From Brevibacterium sp. JSBI002 (GTDB taxonomy: Bacteria; Actinomycetota; Actinomycetes; Actinomycetales; Brevibacteriaceae): DNA of 64,000 nt. Shown in pieces: positions 40,688 through 48,917 of the stretch. The position numbers and the translations under genes are program-made. The stretch is taken from the NCBI RefSeq assembly GCF_026013965.1, contig NZ_CP110341.1, positions 2,914,001 to 2,978,000 on the forward strand. The letters are read 5' to 3'. The notes under the pieces are model-generated. The model was given only the letters and a program-made list of their open reading frames with translations, was not told the DNA's origin and searched no databases. Every line of letters starts with the position of its first letter. The first letter of the stretch is position 1.

Positions 40688-42334
40688 TCAGTCGCCCCGC
40701 ACAGGGCTGACTCCCGAGGCCTGATCGTAGACAGCCCGATCCCGGCGGAACGCGCGGCTCCGAGCATAGCTGTGTACAGTGTCGAGCACTTCGCGTTGGT
40801 GTTCTGCCTTCTGCGCTAACCCACGGAACTGTTCGGCATCCAGGCCGAGTGCCTCGGCGTTGCCCTCAAGCGTCTGCCACATTCCCAGCTTGCCGATGAC
40901 CGCGCTGCGCATCAGCTCGGCTTCGAGCACGAGGGTCATGGGCGAGCGCTTGAGCAGCGAGCCGTTGCTCTTGAGCCTGCCGACCCGTTCGCCGACCCAC
41001 GACAACGCCTCGGCGACGGGACGGCGCCGGAGACCGAGCTCGCCGATGAGGTGCCGAACGTAAAGATGCTCTCCGCGGATCTCCGCGGCCAACTCGGACA
41101 GAGCCGCGAAGACGGGCGTATCGACGAAGTCGGCCGCCATCCGTTCGATCCTCTCCGCCCCGGCGGTGGCCCCGGTGAGATGGTCGCTGAGATAGAGACC
41201 CAGGAGGTCCATGTCGACCTCGCTGTGCTCCCCGCCCGCATCCGATGCTTCGTGTCCGGTGCTCGTGTCGTCGGTCGTCCGCAGCTGCGGCTGCTCGGGA
41301 TCGCGCGGACGCAGCGGGACGGAGGCGGCACCCTCGCCGTCAGCCATGCCCTTGAGCAGTTCGCGCGCGGAGTCCATGGCGCTGTACTCGGGCTCCCAGC
41401 CGAGTTCTCGGCGCGCGCGGCTGTTGTCCATCAGCGGCACGTTGAGGCCCATGTCCAGCCATCCTTCATCGGCGGCGACCAGTGAGCTGCTGTGGCCCAT
41501 GCTCAGTGCCGCGCGCACTGCGCCGTTCGGCACCGGGATGTGCCTGCCGTGGTCGAGCAGTTCGGCCAGATCCTTCGGATGGAGGACATCATCGGCGCAG
41601 ATGTTGAAGGCTCCCGAACGGCGACGGAGGACACTGGCGACATAGGCACGGGCGACATCGGTCGAGTGGACGGCTTGGACGCCGCGCAGTCCCGCAGGCA
41701 GCGGAAGGAACGGCAGTCGGCCCGCGCGCAGCAGCTGGACGGGCATCCAGGTTCCCAGGAAATAGCGCTGGATCTCCGAGGCGGCAGGGGCACCGAAGAT
41801 GAGCGCGGGACGCAGTCGAGTCACGGTGATCTCGGGGTGGTCGGCGCAGAAGTCGTCGAGCACGCGTTCCTGGGCGGCTTTGTCCACACTGTAGTGGGAA
41901 GAGCGGATCCCGTCGGTCGGCCATGCCTCATCGCGCTTGTCCATGCTGTCGTCGGGAGAGTAGGCGCCGACCGAGGACGCCACGACGAGATGCGGAATGC
42001 CGGCCGCCGCGACGGCTGCGGCCACACGGGCCGTGCCGTCGACGTTGACCCGTCGGAGCAGGCCCCGGTCGCTGTTGGGCTGGATCAGCCAGGCCAGATG
42101 GATGACGGCGTCGGCACCGGTCAGCGCTTCTGTGAGATCCCGGTGCGCCGTGTCCTGGCTGCTCGCGGCGGCGATGTCGATCGATCTCCATTCGCATCCG
42201 GAATACGGTTCGGCCTCGGTGTCGGGCATCCGTCTGGAGATTCCCAGCACCGAGGTGATGTCGGACGTGCGCCCGAGCACGTCGAGGACCGCTGTGCCGA
42301 CGTTGCCGGTGGCTCCGATGACTGCGACTCTCAT
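40688..42334 (-). CDS. NAD-dependent epimerase fused to a helical-bundle domain
   Basis: 548 residues, start overlapping the GvpL stop (ATGA at 42334). Residues 1-~340 are an SDR/epimerase: VAVIGATGNVGTAVLDVLGR, AVIHLAWLIQPNSD, VASSVGAYSPD and the Y-x-x-x-K in HYSVDKAAQER. After a charged linker, residues ~390-545 are all-helical (LLGLYLSDHLTGATAGAERI, RGEHLYVRHLIGELGLRR, RLKSNGSLLKRSP) like a ferritin-like actinobacterial family usually found as a separate small protein. Last gene of the gas-vesicle operon; its role there is unknown. Confidence 0.8.
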   Translation of the reverse strand: MRVAVIGATGNVGTAVLDVLGRTSDITSVLGISRRMPDTEAEPYSGCEWRSIDIAAASSQDTAHRDLTEALTGADAVIHLAWLIQPNSDRGLLRRVNVDGTARVAAAVAAAGIPHLVVASSVGAYSPDDSMDKRDEAWPTDGIRSSHYSVDKAAQERVLDDFCADHPEITVTRLRPALIFGAPAASEIQRYFLGTWMPVQLLRAGRLPFLPLPAGLRGVQAVHSTDVARAYVASVLRRRSGAFNICADDVLHPKDLAELLDHGRHIPVPNGAVRAALSMGHSSSLVAADEGWLDMGLNVPLMDNSRARRELGWEPEYSAMDSARELLKGMADGEGAASVPLRPRDPEQPQLRTTDDTSTGHEASDAGGEHSEVDMDLLGLYLSDHLTGATAGAERIERMAADFVDTPVFAALSELAAEIRGEHLYVRHLIGELGLRRRPVAEALSWVGERVGRLKSNGSLLKRSPMTLVLEAELMRSAVIGKLGMWQTLEGNAEALGLDAEQFRGLAQKAEHQREVLDTVHSYARSRAFRRDRAVYDQASGVSPVRGD

Positions 42335-43179
42335 GTTCGCTCCCCCTGCGGGTTCGGCGTCGGTGCGTCCGGTGCAGAGCCGTTCGGGTTTCCCTCCTTG
42401 CCGATGGAGACGTCGGCGAAGGAATACGGCGGCCACGGGCCGAGGAAGCGGATGGACAGAGCAGGCTGAGCCTTCTTGAGCGCGGTGAGCTCGGCTCCAA
42501 GCGCCGTGATCTCTGTGCCTCTCACCAGGCACGAGGCCATGATCACCGGTGTCAATCCACTCTCGCGGCTCGTGGAGCGGTGTTCCTCGATGTCGAGGCA
42601 GTGGGCGGCGATCCTGGCCCTGATCTCCGGATAGATCCTGTCGGCCGCTCGATCGATGATCTCCTTCTCCGTCTTCTCCAGTCGCTTCTCGAGCAGTCGG
42701 CGCACTCCTGCAGGACGGCTCTCCATCTCCGTCCTCATGTCGCCGACTTCTGCGTAGACCTCCTCGAGCAGGCTTCCGTCCAGGGACAGTTCGACGCGCA
42801 GCTCGGAGGTGTCGCGCAGCTCCTCGAGCCGTCTCGACAGCGTCTCCGCGGAGTCGTCGAGCCAATGTTCGAGCTGTTGGGTCGCCGTCGCCTCGGTCTC
42901 CGGGTCCGAGCGGACGATGACGTTGAAGGAGACCGGGAGGAGGGCCGGTGAGTTCTGCCAAGCATCATCGATGACTTCGCTGTGTTCGAGCACCCACCGA
43001 CGTACGGAATCGTCCGGCCCGTCGAAGGGGCCTCGGGTGTGGCGGTGGACCACGGCCCTCGGTCCCGTGTCGCGTCCGACCATGTGGAGCGCGGAACCCT
43101 CGATGCCCGTGACGGCAGGAGTGTAATCGCCGCCGGCGACGACGGCGTAGACGTAGAGCATGTCACCCTCGGCGTTCAT
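42331..43179 (-). CDS. gvpL: Gas vesicle protein GvpL/GvpF family (second copy)
   Basis: 282 residues from ATG 43179, overlapping the gvpK stop. MLYVYAVVAGGDYTP, SEVIDDAWQNSPALLPVSFN and PDDSVRRWVLEHSEVI match the GvpL/F family; the C-terminus RFLGPWPPYSFADV is diagnostic. These accessory proteins are minor shell or assembly factors. The last ~25 residues are Pro/Asn-rich and variable. Confidence 0.9.
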   Translation of the reverse strand: MNAEGDMLYVYAVVAGGDYTPAVTGIEGSALHMVGRDTGPRAVVHRHTRGPFDGPDDSVRRWVLEHSEVIDDAWQNSPALLPVSFNVIVRSDPETEATATQQLEHWLDDSAETLSRRLEELRDTSELRVELSLDGSLLEEVYAEVGDMRTEMESRPAGVRRLLEKRLEKTEKEIIDRAADRIYPEIRARIAAHCLDIEEHRSTSRESGLTPVIMASCLVRGTEITALGAELTALKKAQPALSIRFLGPWPPYSFADVSIGKEGNPNGSAPDAPTPNPQGERT

Positions 43180-43499
43180 TCGACTCCCTTTCCGTTCTCC
43201 TCGGCCCATCTTGCCGGATTGATGAGCTTGTCGACGACTTCATCGACGACGTCGTCGAGACCCCGATGCAGATCGTCGACGGAGCCGGTGATTCCGTGCT
43301 GGTCCTTGATCTGGTCCATCGCCTCATCGAGTTCGAGGAGGGCCTCGCCGAGGCGGTTCTGCTCGTCCTCGGTGAGGTCCCCGCCTTCCATCCGGCGCAC
43401 GGCTTGGGTCTCGAGGGCCTCTTGGATCACCTCGACGAGCGTGACGACGAGGGTGAGCACTCCGTGTTTGAGGCTCTCCTCATTGACGTTCAGCGCCAT
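43176..43499 (-). CDS. gvpK: Gas vesicle protein GvpK
   Basis: 107 residues. NVNEESLKHGVLTLVVTLVE and VIQEALETQAVRRMEGG are the conserved GvpK start; a helical C-terminus follows. The start lies ten bases inside the end of the upstream PH/GRAM-fused gene. Essential accessory protein in gas-vesicle assembly in other bacteria. Confidence 0.93.
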   Translation of the reverse strand: MALNVNEESLKHGVLTLVVTLVEVIQEALETQAVRRMEGGDLTEDEQNRLGEALLELDEAMDQIKDQHGITGSVDDLHRGLDDVVDEVVDKLINPARWAEENGKGVE

Positions 43500-44491
43500 G
43501 GTGCTGCTCCTTCTCCGACACGGTCGTCGGGGTTGCGGCCTGGTGACATGGTGGCCTCGAGCGGCGCGGAACGCCTGTCACCGGGCCCGGTCCGCCACTT
43601 GTCGAGTCCGGCGAACCACGCGCCGGCGTCGTCTGCGGCCAGGGTGATGGTCGAGTCCGCGGTCTCGAGGATGAGGACCCGCCGTTCGTCGGTCGGGTTG
43701 CTGCGCTCCTCGCGGCGGATGTCTAGCAGCTGCTCGGGTGAGATCCTCACTCGTGCGCGCCCGTCCATCGGCGACCTCCAGGTCAGTTCCGTGTTCGAAA
43801 GCTGCGCCTGCCCGCCGCGCCACGTGCTCCCGGTCGACAGAGTCTCGAGAAACCACATCCGACCCTCTCGCAGAGGCCGATCCTCCGCCGTCGCCTCCGG
43901 AGTCGAGGATGAGGCGCCCTCGGCCCGGCCGAGCCGAGCCTGGACCAGGGAGATGAGGCGATCGGGCTCGAGGGCCGAAAGGACCGCCTCGCTGCCGTCC
44001 TTGAGCCCGACGAGGATGCGCGTGCGCTCTTCGCCTCCGATGGAGGACTCGCGAAGCGGGGAGACCGAGGCGATCGCGTCCAGGCGCGTCTGCCACAGTG
44101 TCTCCGCAGGGTCACGTCGATGGATGATGAGACGCTGGGTGGTGAGATAGGCGCTGCCGGGCCGCCACGTTCGATAGAAGTTGTCCTGATAGTGCCCTCC
44201 GGCCATCTTGGCGAGGATCTCCTCGTCCGCGGCCAGCGGCAGATGTGTGCGGACCGCTCTCTGCACCCACTCCCTGGTGTCGCGGTCCCACTGTTGCATC
44301 ATCCCGTACTCGATCATCGTCTCGATTCCCGCGATCGTGGCGCGCAGGTTGACTCCGATGAGCGGGATGTCCGCGACCGAGATGATGAGGTCGAGGTTGA
44401 GATGGACCCCCTTGTTGAGGAGCACTTCGATGAGATCGGGCAAGGTTGCCCGCGGGTCCCGGGTGGGCTGCATGCTCGCGTCTCCGGTCAT
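43490..44491 (-). CDS. GvpA-family (GvpJ/S-like) protein fused to two PH/GRAM-like domains
   Basis: 333 residues, ribosome site GAGGCG before ATG 44491. Residues ~15-70 are a GvpA-type shell domain: LPDLIEVLLNKGVHLNLDLI, ADIPLIGVNLRATIAGIETM. Then come two similar beta-rich modules: ~90-190 (AADEEILAKMAGGHY, GSAYLTTQRLIIHRRD, ILVGLKDGSEAVLSAL) and ~210-305 (GRMWFLETLSTGSTWRGG, AQLSNTELTWRSPMDG, TITLAADDAGAWFAGL), each like GRAM/PH lipid- or protein-binding folds. Ordinary GvpJ/GvpS lack these. They may tether the vesicle shell to another surface; inferred from fold only. Confidence 0.8.
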   Translation of the reverse strand: MTGDASMQPTRDPRATLPDLIEVLLNKGVHLNLDLIISVADIPLIGVNLRATIAGIETMIEYGMMQQWDRDTREWVQRAVRTHLPLAADEEILAKMAGGHYQDNFYRTWRPGSAYLTTQRLIIHRRDPAETLWQTRLDAIASVSPLRESSIGGEERTRILVGLKDGSEAVLSALEPDRLISLVQARLGRAEGASSSTPEATAEDRPLREGRMWFLETLSTGSTWRGGQAQLSNTELTWRSPMDGRARVRISPEQLLDIRREERSNPTDERRVLILETADSTITLAADDAGAWFAGLDKWRTGPGDRRSAPLEATMSPGRNPDDRVGEGAAPWR

Positions 44492-44498
44492 GGTCGCC

Positions 44499-44906
44499 TC
44501 AGCTGTCGTCGTCGGAGTCCAACTGGGCCGGCTCCCCGGCCTCGATCCGCTTCGACCGCGCGCTCTGCCAACCGCACCAGGGGCAGTAGTCGTTCATCAG
44601 CTGTGCGAGCTCGGAGCGCTTCCCGCACTCCGGACAGGTGTCCTTCTGCTCGACCGCTTCCTTCCACGCGACGGTCTCCCGATCCGTGCCCGCTGGGAAG
44701 TCCAGTCCATAGCGGGCCGCGGTTTCGAAGGAGGCGAGGGCGGCTCTGATCCGGATGCCCAGCAGCTCGACACCGGCCACGGAGACCATGATGTCCGCGT
44801 TGAGGACCAGACCTTTGTCCAGCAGCGTCTCCACGACGTGCAGCAGCGTGCCCTCCTGGCTGCGCTGCGGCTGCATCGCATCGTTCGGCTGATTCATGAT
44901 GCTCAT
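44499..44906 (-). CDS. gvpJ: GvpA-family (GvpJ/S-like) protein with C-terminal zinc ribbon
   Basis: 135 residues from ATG 44906. The GvpA-type core is LLHVVETLLDKGLVLNADIM, VSVAGVELLGIRIRAALASF. After it, CPECGKRSELAQLMNDYCPWC (21 residues apart in two CxxC pairs, here cut to CPECG and CPWCG) forms a likely zinc ribbon. Zinc ribbons are not part of standard GvpJ/GvpS. It could be a minor shell or tip protein with a binding module. Confidence 0.82.
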   Translation of the reverse strand: MSIMNQPNDAMQPQRSQEGTLLHVVETLLDKGLVLNADIMVSVAGVELLGIRIRAALASFETAARYGLDFPAGTDRETVAWKEAVEQKDTCPECGKRSELAQLMNDYCPWCGWQSARSKRIEAGEPAQLDSDDDS

Positions 44907-44919
44907 ATCGCCCTTTCGG

Positions 44920-45432
44920 TCACTCGCTCGGCCGGCCGCGGACGTAGCGATCCTTCCTGTCATAGGCCATGAGCTCGCCATCCGCATCGAGCTCGACCTC
45001 GTATTCGGCCAGCAGATCCGCGCTGTCGGGAATCCGTCGCGATTCCACGACCTCCAGACGCACGGACCAGTGGTCGTCCTTCCACCTCGTGCCGACCACG
45101 GACTCGGGAGGCCTGCCCGTGAGGGTGCCGAACTGCTCGATCGCCTTCTTCACCGCTCTGACCGCAGAGATCCTCTTGCCGGTCGCGCCCTGAGAGCCGC
45201 TCTCCGAGCGCGAGGACGCCTTCGGCCTCTCCCGTGCCGATGACGCCGACTTCTCGTGCGATGACGATGTCGGCTTCTCGTGTGATGACGATGCCGACTT
45301 CTCACGTGCCGCTGATGTCGAGGCGGACGAGCGGCGGGACGACCCCTCCGTCACGTTCTCGCTCGATTTCCGGTCACGCTTCTCGCTCGCGTCTGTCGCA
45401 GATTTCCCATCTGCTCTGGGTTCTTCGCTCAT
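44920..45432 (-). CDS. gvpO: Gas vesicle protein GvpO
   Basis: 170 residues. The C-terminal ~85 residues are the GvpO domain (AVRAVKKAIEQFGTLTGRPP, WKDDHWSVRLEVVESRRIPD, LLAEYEVELDADGEL). The N-terminal half is a low-complexity Ser/Glu/Lys/Arg tail with HEK-containing repeats (SSSHEKP, SSSHEKS). Start overlaps the gvpG stop. Assembly/regulatory accessory protein. Confidence 0.88.
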   Translation of the reverse strand: MSEEPRADGKSATDASEKRDRKSSENVTEGSSRRSSASTSAAREKSASSSHEKPTSSSHEKSASSARERPKASSRSESGSQGATGKRISAVRAVKKAIEQFGTLTGRPPESVVGTRWKDDHWSVRLEVVESRRIPDSADLLAEYEVELDADGELMAYDRKDRYVRGRPSE

Positions 45433-45680
45433 CGGTCCTCCTCGGTTCTGCGCCGACGGCCCTCGAGCAGTCGTCCGACGAGCTCACGCTCGAGGGCATC
45501 GGCTTCGTCATCACTGATCGATCCGCGTTCACGTGCCCCAGCGACCTCTTCCAGCTGGCGCCGGATGGCACCGGGATCGAAATAGCGCTTCTCGGCTTCT
45601 CCTCTGACCTGCTCGGCGACCCATACGGTTCCCTTGAGCGGTGCCAAGGGAGCACCGAAGACTGCTGACAGAAGTCCCAT
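45429..45680 (-). CDS. gvpG: Gas vesicle protein GvpG
   Basis: 83 residues: GLLSAVFGAPLAPLKGTVWV is the hydrophobic GvpG start, then VAEQVRGEAEKRYFDPGAIR and a charged helical end (LEEVAGARERGSISDDEADA). Eight bases after gvpF. Accessory protein thought to act with GvpF/GvpL in assembly. Confidence 0.92.
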   Translation of the reverse strand: MGLLSAVFGAPLAPLKGTVWVAEQVRGEAEKRYFDPGAIRRQLEEVAGARERGSISDDEADALERELVGRLLEGRRRRTEEDR

Positions 45681-45688
45681 GACGTCAC

Positions 45689-46441
45689 CTACATCTCGGG
45701 GACGAAGTCGTAGGGTGCCTGCGGTCCGATCAGCCGGAATCTCATCCGCTCCCGGTTCGCCTCCGCCAACTCCTCGATGACGGAGTCGAATTCGTCGATG
45801 GCGTCCCTGCGAACCAGCACCGCCACCTCGGCGACGTCCTCGGCCTGGCCGACTTCCCGCATCGCCGTCTCGACTGTCGCGGAGCGGATCTGCTCGAGTA
45901 TCGGAGGAGCTTCGGTCCTTCTCCAGCTCTCCATCGTCGTGACCACGATCTCTCCGAGCCGGATACGTTCGTTCCTCGTCTCGTCTTCGCTCGTGCCGCT
46001 GATCCTCTCCCTCAGCTCGGCGACCTCGGGGTTACCGCTGACGATCTCCCGCAGTATCGCGTCTCGATCGAAGGTGATCCTCAGGGTGAACTGCGTGCAT
46101 CCGGACAGCTGTTCGAGCGCCTCGGCGAAGGCCTCCGCCTGCGGAGCGAGAACCTCCTCGGCGATATCGGTGTCTCCCGGCACCACGGTGCCGAATGCGA
46201 GCGGCAACACCGGTTGCTTCTCGGCCAGCTCGTCGAGGACGACGCTGTGGTTCTGCAGAGCTTCGGGAGTGCCCAGCATCCCACTGTCCGCGAGTTCCGT
46301 GACCACGGCCGCAACTGCCCCGGACTCGACGATAGCGAGGGCATTGCCCTGCACCCCGTCGGGCCCGGTCGGCAGCTCGGCACCGGCGCGTACGATCCCG
46401 TACAGATACCGATCTGCCGAGGGTGCGCCTTCTTCACTCAT
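45689..46441 (-). CDS. gvpF: Gas vesicle protein GvpF
   Basis: 250 residues, start overlapping the gvpA stop (ATGA). [40 protein letters not shown] and the family end [16 protein letters not shown]. GvpF is a minor component on the gas-facing side of the shell and binds GvpA during assembly. This copy is next to gvpA, the second (42331-43179) is at the end of the operon. Confidence 0.92.
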
Positions 46442-46872
46442 TCGGACTCCGAGGAGCTGCGCGCCGGGCGTTTGGTCCGGCGACGTGATTTCTCCTGACT
46501 CGAACTCTCGCCCGAGTCGTCATCGGAGTCGTCCGAGGTGAGGGCGTCCTTGATGCCTTCCACAGCTCCCTGGGTCTTGCCCTTAGAGCCGTTCTCCATC
46601 ATTCCGCCCATCATCTCCGGTAGGTCGCGTCCGCCCTGCTGTGTCAGATCGAGCCGGTTCGTCGCCTCGGCGAAGCGCAGATAGGTGTCCACGCTGGCGA
46701 TGACGATGCGTGCGTCGATCGTGAGGACCTCGATCCCCACCAGGGAGACGCGTACGTATGCATCGATGACCAGGCCCTTGTCGAGGATGATCTCGATGAC
46801 GTCTGCAAGCGAACTCGACGACGGACGGTCGACGTAGCTGCCGCGTGATCGTTCAACAGTGCTGGTGCTCAT
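46438..46872 (-). CDS. gvpA: Major gas vesicle shell protein GvpA
   Basis: 144 residues. The shell core [55 protein letters not shown] is nearly the textbook GvpA sequence. The C-terminal ~75 residues are polar and end in Ser/Arg/Lys-rich sequence, an extension also seen in Streptomyces GvpA. Forms the amphipathic ribs of the hollow gas-permeable shell. Confidence 0.93.
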
Positions 46873-46903
46873 TGTCCTTGCCTACTTCCCAATCGGAGGA
46901 CGC

Positions 46904-48004
46904 TCAGCGGCGTTCCTCGTCTTCTGGTTCTTCGGATTCCTCGTATTCCACGGGCTCGTCAGCGGCTTCCGGTTCCTCCTCGTAGTCCTCTGCGGGCTCC
47001 GCGTCGTCTGCCTCGGCCGGTTCCTCGTCCTCGTAGTCCTCTGCCGGTTCCTCCTCATACTCCTCTTCGGCTTCGCCCTCGGCGGGCTCGAGATCGGACT
47101 CCTCCGCCTCCGAATCGTCGGGATCTGTCTCGTCCGCACCGGAGTCGACATCCGCGTCCTGATCCTCGGCGGACTCATCCTCGCTGCCTTCAGCTTGCTC
47201 CTGCTCCTCCTCGAGGCCGTCCTCGTGGGAGGTGACGAGCTCACCGTCGCGGATCTCTCCGCGCCAGCCCTCGACGCTGTCGGGATCGAGCATGATCTGA
47301 CGCATCACGTGGTGGACGAAGAACTTCAGTTCGAGGCGGAAACGGCGGGGAACGGTGAACCACAGGGCACCGACGCCTTCCACGAAGCCCTGCTTGTGGT
47401 ACTCGCCCACCGCAATGATCCGGGTCAGCCTGGGTGCGACTTCGTGGAAGGAGATGCTGCCGCTGATGTAGCCCTTCTCGCCGGTCGATTCCCATACGAT
47501 ATGGGAGTCGGGAACCTGCTCGGTGATCGTGGCTTCCCAGGTTCGATGCGACCAGACCGCCTGGCCCTTGATGCTGAGGGTGACATCATCGGTGCGTTCG
47601 ACGTTCTCGACCTTCTTCATGAAATCGGGCCAGTCCTCGAACATCGTGAACGCGTTGTAGGCCACGTTCAGCGGGACACCGACCTCTGCGGTCTCCACGA
47701 TGTTGGAGAACTTGAAATCACCGGAGCCGCCCGAACCGCTCGAGCCGCCTCCGAACAGACCCTTGACTTTCTCCTTGACGCCGGTCGTCGCCGCAGACAG
47801 TGCCGCTTTCGCCGGTGACTCGCCCTCAGCGATCTCCTCCGCACCAGCCTGGGCCGCAGGCGCTGCACCATCGCCCATACCGTCGAGACGGTCTGCGAAC
47901 TTCTCGACCCTGTCCCCGACGGAGTTGACCGCCTTGCGTCCGAGGGTCTTGGCGAAGTCTCCGGCCTGCTGCCTGAGGCCGCTGAAGATCGAATCATCAC
48001 TCAT
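46904..48004 (-). CDS. SRPBCC-domain gas-vesicle-cluster protein (GvpZ-like)
   Basis: 366 residues. Central SRPBCC/polyketide-cyclase fold: VETAEVGVPLNVAYNAFTMF, EDWPDFMKKVENVERTDD, AVWSHRTWEATITEQVPDSH, RIIAVGEYHKQGFVEGVG. N-terminal helical stretch with a Gly/Ser linker; the last ~120 residues are extremely acidic (repeats of EEPAEDYE-type). Streptomyces gas-vesicle clusters carry an SRPBCC gene, gvpZ, in a similar context. It overlaps the upstream gene by eight bases. Function unknown. Confidence 0.75.
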   Translation of the reverse strand: MSDDSIFSGLRQQAGDFAKTLGRKAVNSVGDRVEKFADRLDGMGDGAAPAAQAGAEEIAEGESPAKAALSAATTGVKEKVKGLFGGGSSGSGGSGDFKFSNIVETAEVGVPLNVAYNAFTMFEDWPDFMKKVENVERTDDVTLSIKGQAVWSHRTWEATITEQVPDSHIVWESTGEKGYISGSISFHEVAPRLTRIIAVGEYHKQGFVEGVGALWFTVPRRFRLELKFFVHHVMRQIMLDPDSVEGWRGEIRDGELVTSHEDGLEEEQEQAEGSEDESAEDQDADVDSGADETDPDDSEAEESDLEPAEGEAEEEYEEEPAEDYEDEEPAEADDAEPAEDYEEEPEAADEPVEYEESEEPEDEERR

Positions 48005-48677
48005 CTTCGGCCTCCTCGGGCTTGGCAGCGGCGCGAGATGAGGTCTTCTTCGCAGTCGTCGATCGCTTGGAGCCCGACTTCGTGCGCGAGCCGCGCGAAC
48101 TGGTCGAAGACTTCGACGAACGCGTGCCCTTCGCGGAGCGGTTCGCTGTCGAGGAGCGCTTGGCTGCCGGCTTCTTCGGAGCTTCCTCCTCAGCCTGCGG
48201 CTCTTCGTCGATCTCCTGCGGCTCGTCGGCCGTCTCCGCCTCGCCGGTCTCGGAACCCTCCGACGGCTCGGGAGCGTTCTCGGCCTCCGACTCGGGCGCG
48301 TTCTCTTCGTCGTCCGCGCCTTCGCTGTCATCGACGCTGGGATCGATCGCGTCGGCGGTGTCATCGAGAGTCGCCTTCATCTTCTCGGTCTGCTCCTGAA
48401 GCTTGGCGCTGAGCTGATCGACTCCCTTCGCTGCCACGGCCTTGGCGGCGTTCTTGCCGGAGTCGGCCAGACGGCCGGTGATCTTCTCCTGGAGATTCTT
48501 GAGCTCGGGGGAAGAATCAGCGAAATCCTTGAGTCCGCCCAGAAGCTGGTCGCGATTCTTCGCGGCGGTCGTCCCGGCGACAGCCGAGGCGACCGTGAGC
48601 GCCAGGCCGAACTTCTTGGTTCTGCCGAGCATGTAGCCCGCCAGTATCAGGCCGGTGATTTTCATCTTGTTGTTCAT
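47997..48677 (-). CDS. Gas-vesicle-cluster protein with acidic and basic tails (GvpY-like)
   Basis: 226 residues from ATG 48677, ribosome site GGAGG. A short membrane-like start (ITGLILAGYMLGRTKKFGLA, LTVASAVAGTTAAKN), then a helical segment, an acidic middle (DDSEGADDEENAPESEAENA) and a basic Ser/Arg/Lys tail (RGSRTKSGSKRSTTAKKTSS) resembling histone-like tails. Matches in position the GvpY of Streptomyces clusters, but sequence support is weak because most of it is low complexity. First gene of the operon. Confidence 0.65.
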   Translation of the reverse strand: MNNKMKITGLILAGYMLGRTKKFGLALTVASAVAGTTAAKNRDQLLGGLKDFADSSPELKNLQEKITGRLADSGKNAAKAVAAKGVDQLSAKLQEQTEKMKATLDDTADAIDPSVDDSEGADDEENAPESEAENAPEPSEGSETGEAETADEPQEIDEEPQAEEEAPKKPAAKRSSTANRSAKGTRSSKSSTSSRGSRTKSGSKRSTTAKKTSSRAAAKPEEAEDE

Positions 48678-48917
48678 GATTGCCTCCGTCTCCGCGCTGA
48701 TGGGCACGGACCGAGATGGGAATTCGAAGACTGTCCCCTGGCCGGGATTGCCGTTCCACGGGGTACAGCTCCACTGTGCTGATCAATGATTCGAGGGTCA
48801 CCGCCTCATGACAACGACGGCGGGAATCGTCTCCGCCCGGCGTCCGAGGCTGTCGCAGATTCCTGACCGCATCTGCGGGCTTCCTGCGTCCCGGAAGCCA
48901 AGAGCACTCTGCCCTTT

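Follow-up and report, generated by a model that had tools for sequence, protein, structure and literature searches.

A gas vesicle protein extended by a pair of PH/GRAM modules

We analysed a 64,000-nucleotide stretch of Brevibacterium sp. JSBI002 (contig NZ_CP110341.1, positions 2,914,001 to 2,978,000), hereafter the window, which carries a gas vesicle (gvp) operon on its minus strand, to which all window coordinates below refer. One gene of this operon (43490..44491) codes for a GvpM/GvpS-type gas vesicle protein joined to two C-terminal PH/GRAM modules, as judged from the open reading frame (ORF), Pfam, NCBIfam, homologues and an AlphaFold2 (AF2) model; we refer to it as the fusion. The ORF starts with ATG, is uninterrupted by stops and encodes 333 amino acids (aa). 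Its GvpM-type (Gas_vesicle) domain, M, spans residues 7-80 (44252..44473), where residues 16-54 match Pfam Gas_vesicle (PF00741) with 40.1 bits, well over the cut-off of 25 (E 4e-10), and among the NCBIfam models haloarchaeal GvpM matches best (88.0 bits), followed by GvpJ (50.4) and GvpA (18.2). Module 1 (PH1), which is PH-GRAM/GLUE-like, occupies residues 84-194 (43910..44242), and module 2 (PH2) residues 204-304 (43580..43882). Homologues are named "gas vesicle protein" or "GvpJ" in the databases, a GvpJ name that the M-domain scores contradict for the window protein. Among the matches listed, the closest is 98% identical and named Brevibacterium linens, and further ones come from other Brevibacterium species.

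The AF2 model predicts both modules with high local confidence, with every ten-residue block over residues 81-190 and 211-300 averaging a predicted local distance difference test (pLDDT) value of at least 90. Each module is predicted by AF2 and fold search to have seven strands and one helix, i.e., the seven-strand PH/GRAM barrel with its C-terminal helix cap; the fold searches hardly bear on the Gas_vesicle part or on the tail at the C-terminus. Some homologues that share the complete architecture also match PH-type Pfam families over cut-off. Two of them, at loci L078 and L077, score 29.6 and 25.3 with GRAM (cut-off 23.6) and 32.2 and 31.2 with Vps36 (cut-off 24.1); among the five M-PH proteins scanned with Pfam, these two pass both families, L080 passes Vps36 only, and L056 and L079 pass neither. 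The two modules also resemble each other, with an hhalign probability of 92.7, whereas none of 13 control pairs that involve the Hsp20 or the GvpM-type domain exceeds 0.8. The preliminary description, which had read a gas vesicle domain followed by two mutually similar PH/GRAM-like modules from the letters alone, is thus borne out, with the barrel itself as a predicted structure.

Related modules are known from the PH/GRAM/GLUE superfamily (MTMR2 PH-GRAM, Vps36 GLUE, TAPP1 PH and the tandem PH of BBS5), whereas here they sit on a gas vesicle shell-type domain. Described GvpJ and GvpM proteins are short, as had been presumed, at 114 and 84 aa according to excerpts of PMC9501494; compared with GvpM, the fusion has about 250 further residues, which make up the two modules and a tail. 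Because it is 333 aa long, it is better regarded as a variant filling the GvpM/GvpS slot than as a standard member. Full-text searches of open-access papers turned up no description of the M-PH-PH architecture, nor any mention of it as a named standard form of a Gvp protein.

Conservation, charge and spread of the modules

In six pairwise comparisons, the ratio of non-synonymous to synonymous substitution rates (dN/dS) of the modules was about 0.13-0.54, with dS saturated, near or above 1, in several of them. The linker and tail were far less conserved than the modules, several values being saturated or undefined, and module 1 was more conserved than module 2. Residues invariant across 45 aligned rows include W109, P111, G112, T117, R120, R125, W213, W224, R225 and G227. 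These data bear on the explanation that the modules are merely a solubility tail or spacer, which keeps the hydrophobic GvpM domain soluble before assembly and has no specific partner. GvpM indeed aggregates without GvpH (PMC9501494, in part), module 2 is the less conserved one, and the profile of an Hsp20 companion described below is unmatched in the stretches L001-L055. But the invariant residues and the dN/dS values exceed what a bulky tail would need, although much of this could be fold-keeping, and we consider the explanation quite unlikely.

A second explanation is a membrane or lipid anchor, in which the PH/GRAM pair would bind membrane lipid and so tether a forming vesicle, or the tip of one, to the membrane. 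Phosphoinositides are frequent ligands of PH and GRAM domains, and phosphatidylinositol is made by actinobacteria. The best fold matches of the modules include PH domains solved with inositol phosphates or with the head groups of phosphoinositides or lipids, and a gene for an SRPBCC-fold protein, a fold that is often lipid-binding, lies in the same cluster. However, the median net charge is -3 for PH1 and -2 for PH2, i.e., acidic to neutral on average, which argues mildly against a phosphoinositide role of the pair; related PH modules also occur on an Hsp20 protein; and the architecture is found in metagenome-assembled genomes (MAGs) assigned to Desulfobacteraceae and Atribacterota, where to our knowledge phosphoinositides are not expected. 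Lipid anchoring appears unlikely to us.

All three parts (M, PH1 and PH2) are present in 119 of the 120 homologues listed, out of 240 found in total, so that neither chance nor an assembly error accounts for the fusion. Together with the dN/dS values, this rules out decay or chance fusion as the origin of the protein, and the earlier judgement that it is not decay holds. A search with the PH pair gave 345 matches, and the 95 newly listed ones comprised 91 with M, PH1 and PH2, three with M and PH1, and one that has nothing but the PH pair; no partner of the pair other than M was seen among the homologue and PH-pair matches listed, for which candidates of limited length were considered. The M domain by itself matched 2194 proteins no longer than 129 aa, GvpJ and GvpA being bound to be among them, and of the best 120 (77-123 aa) 117 had M only and three a PH1 match too. 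Since short GvpM-like proteins are common, the fusion is the extended form, with the proviso that some of the short proteins may be fragments of truncated genes. A scan of named genomes found 56 fusion loci. Hosts include Brevibacterium, Brachybacterium, Kocuria, Nesterenkonia, Georgenia, Micromonospora, Streptomyces and Isoptericola, among others; beyond Actinomycetota, taking the binning as given, there is one locus in a Gemmatimonadetes MAG and one, with a single PH module, in a Desulfobacteraceae MAG.

The fusion as the regular form of one type of gvp cluster

The Gas_vesicle proteins of the window genome number just three, namely A, J and the fusion, of which the fusion is the sole M/S-type one; it therefore fills the GvpM/GvpS slot in place of the short form. 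It resembles GvpM of haloarchaea, GvpS of Bacillus (related to GvpM) and its counterpart GvpA2 of Serratia (PMC9501494, in part), with which it shares the N-terminal domain, an operon with J, K and L, and a single genome copy. Among 57 Brevibacterium genomes, GvpK occurs in 14, and the fusion in the same 14. The preliminary description had taken the fusion for an added part of an otherwise normal operon; the three-protein inventory and the 14 genomes correct this, as the fusion is the ordinary minor shell protein, to which a tail has been added, and the regular form in a whole cluster type. This type is a minority of actinobacterial gvp clusters, because only 8 of the 26 GvpK genomes in a phylum sample (396 genomes) and 3 of the 90 in a class sample (394 genomes; G000, G246 and G690, with at most 28 candidate stretches scored per GvpK genome) carry the fusion. 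The remainder of the tallies of 15/26 and 48/78 consists of A1 matches over the first ~80 residues only (short M, J or A proteins), which were not counted as fusions.

The fusion is the regular form in one distinct type of gvp cluster, and the GvpK proteins separate accordingly. A GvpK tree with 62 rows of fusion loci and 21 of loci that lack the fusion (83 in all) keeps these two sets apart at support 100/100; it is built on 96 columns with long branches, and the labels are not independent, most of the 62 fusion rows having been fetched with the fusion as bait. Nine clusters found with GvpK as bait fall on the fusion side, and all nine have the fusion (G000, G051, G191, G201, G246, G251, G275, G305 and G690), whereas none of the 21 rows on the other side does. 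The tree covers 5 of the 18 genomes of family f95 and a minority of the other GvpK-baited clusters.

Bit scores show a similar division across 31 GvpK places in 26 genomes. Eight places score 67.9-78.7 bits, each in a genome that also carries a full fusion (that of G201 lies on a different contig from gvpK); 22 of the 31 places score at least 112.9 bits, none of them with a full fusion on the same contig; and a stop-containing GvpK of G148 (22.4 bits) is without fusion. That a weak GvpK score marks the fusion was nevertheless rejected as a rule by the 18 genomes of family f95, where GvpK scores 66.4-81.4 bits and none yielded a full fusion among the at most 28 candidate stretches scored per genome. 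The f95 GvpK (e.g., L103-L107) is a further kind, in open frames of 132-365 aa.

The surrounding operon

The operon is encoded on one strand in the order unknown protein, SRPBCC protein, gvpA, gvpF, gvpG, gvpO, GvpJ-type, fusion, gvpK and gvpL. The preliminary description had rightly listed gvpA, F, G, O, K and L, and had omitted the GvpJ-type gene. Directly downstream of the fusion gene lies gvpK (43176..43499; Pfam, GvpK tree), which belongs to the GvpK subtype found with the fusion. The start of gvpK and the end of the fusion gene share 10 bases (43490-43499), an overlap that suggests coupled translation. Next comes gvpL (42331..43209), of the GvpL/F family by family profiles. Directly before the fusion gene is the GvpJ-type gene (44499..44987; GvpJ 101.4 bits), whose product ends in a zinc-ribbon-like CxxC...CxxC tail, zinc-ribbon families being matched there below cut-off only. 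Such a tail is also present on the GvpJ-type proteins of L056, L077, L078, L079 and L080. Of the 55 loci L001-L055, 44 have the GvpJ-type gene as the closest gvp gene ahead of the fusion, and a script reading gave the full J-fusion-K-L order in 30.

Further upstream, Pfam assigns gvpO (44920..45432), gvpG (45429..45680) and gvpF (GvpL/F family, 45689..46441), and Pfam and NCBIfam assign gvpA for the main shell protein (46438..46872). The N-terminal stretch of GvpO is serine-rich, with repeated SSHEK units. Before gvpA lie the gene for the SRPBCC-fold protein (46904..47923; Pfam Polyketide_cyc, E 1.9e-10; part of a longer ORF), which carries a long acidic tail, and one for a protein of unknown fold (47997..48707; ORF list, Pfam scan); this pair (46904-48707) precedes gvpA in many fusion loci. 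For GvpN, nothing in the genome was over cut-off, and the three weaker matches carry little weight, since 12 of 14 control genomes give such matches as well. No ArsA-like ATPase gene was seen among the window gvp genes (42331-48707).

PH/GRAM modules on an Hsp20 companion

Some members of the phylum from outside the class encode, in the neighbourhood, a protein that combines related PH modules with an Hsp20 chaperone domain. Such a second PH/GRAM protein was located in the related clusters at L078:4381-5616, L077:14123-15082, L056:5117-6163 and L080:10853-11740. This companion has one or two PH modules and a helical middle part (~239-299 in the model), its fold barely tested, that links to Hsp20. 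A search with it matched 20 of 36 genomes, 17 of them over the Hsp20 part only. By analogy with GvpH of halophiles, which prevents GvpM aggregation (PMC9501494, in part), the PH-Hsp20 companion could serve GvpM; it differs from GvpH in its PH modules and was not seen in the window cluster.

The gvp clusters of L056, L077, L078, L079 and L080 have ArsA/Get3-like ATPases, double where complete, and several also have a DnaK-like protein, both read from translations, and a separate Hsp20 protein. In L077, a 143-aa protein (L077:2830-3258) with a lone PH1-profile match and no Pfam match adjoins the double ATPase gene. Gas vesicle clusters with ArsA and Hsp20 have been described (PMC2963123), and some of the relatives here likewise have double ArsA-like ATPases and Hsp20 by their gvp genes; the passages considered from that paper do not mention PH/GRAM modules, and the window gvp genes lack such an ATPase.

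Proposed role of the fusion

GvpM acts early and binds GvpL (PMC9501494, in part), and GvpS, K and J have been proposed as vesicle seeds, with GvpS/J perhaps at the tips (PMC11445434, in part). Computation gives the domain make-up, the predicted fold, the slot and the spread of the fusion, and the related PH modules of the companion in some lineages, and we read the fusion as the M/S-type minor shell protein of a distinct cluster type. We infer that it is positioned at the seed or tip and that its PH pair serves as a protein-docking platform for assembly factors, and give this explanation as a whole roughly even chances. As has been suggested for GvpS/GvpM, the N-terminal M domain would become part of the nucleus or the tip of the vesicle, and the PH/GRAM pair would hang at the C-terminus, presumably facing the cytoplasm, where it would most likely hold GvpL, GvpK and, in some lineages, the PH-Hsp20 chaperone at the seed. 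Through the PH tail, a vesicle under construction would probably attach to other proteins. A protein partner is favoured because the modules are acidic to neutral on average and because related PH modules occur on an Hsp20 protein; the latter also supports a chaperone link, though not in the window's own cluster. In the Bacillus system every GvpS fusion permitted vesicles (PMC11445434, in part).

Several observations weigh against the reading of the domains or against this proposal. The GvpM-type part of the fusion is poorly modelled by AF2 (residues 29-47 at pLDDT below 50), and its GvpM score of 88.0 is below the NCBIfam haloarchaeal cut-off of 109, a shortfall that is not decisive because the model is a halophile one. 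No PH or GRAM family is over the Pfam cut-off in the window protein, the best being Vps36 at 17.8 against 24.1. The lipid-bound fold matches belong here too, and net charge ranges widely, from -9 to +2 in PH1 and from -10 to +7 in PH2, and would be compatible with a local basic patch. No PH-Hsp20 partner was seen among the gvp neighbours of the window cluster, and the Hsp20 profile of the companion is unmatched in the stretches L001-L055. Window-type module 2 is weakly tied to the companion modules (hhalign 84.9 and 14.0) and matches module 1 of the relatives at 6.8 only. Finally, a tail on GvpM is not always harmless, because a fusion of GvpM to green fluorescent protein aggregates in Haloferax (PMC9501494, in part).

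PH modules on more than one protein of the related clusters would also fit PH-PH pairing that clusters vesicles or tips, or a role other than buoyancy. Apart from the fusion, the operon has a usual complement of assembly genes, no observation speaks directly for such pairing, and we regard it as very unlikely. Within the docking proposal, the PH/GRAM modules could conceivably form a recognition code of their own for vesicle initiation, in which related modules mark the seed GvpM and a dedicated Hsp20 chaperone, the two meeting through PH-PH or shared-partner docking, an idea that we hold tentatively and think somewhat doubtful.

Significance

The start of the vesicle and the function of GvpM/GvpS have been called unclear (PMC4982088 and PMC11445434, in part). 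What we describe are known parts in a widespread combination that we did not find in the open-access literature, together with a related module that is used again on a chaperone. The fusion is also the mark of another type of gvp cluster, present both within the actinobacteria and outside them, of which our searches gave no description. Its PH modules amount to a sizeable, conserved and by prediction soluble handle on GvpM/S, and tagging, pull-down and deletion of this handle would open vesicle seeding and the whereabouts of GvpM/S to direct tests. The handle may also offer acoustic-reporter engineers a natural docking site on the vesicle. If the recognition code were true, it would be an address-tag system within a bacterial gas organelle, spanning several phyla.
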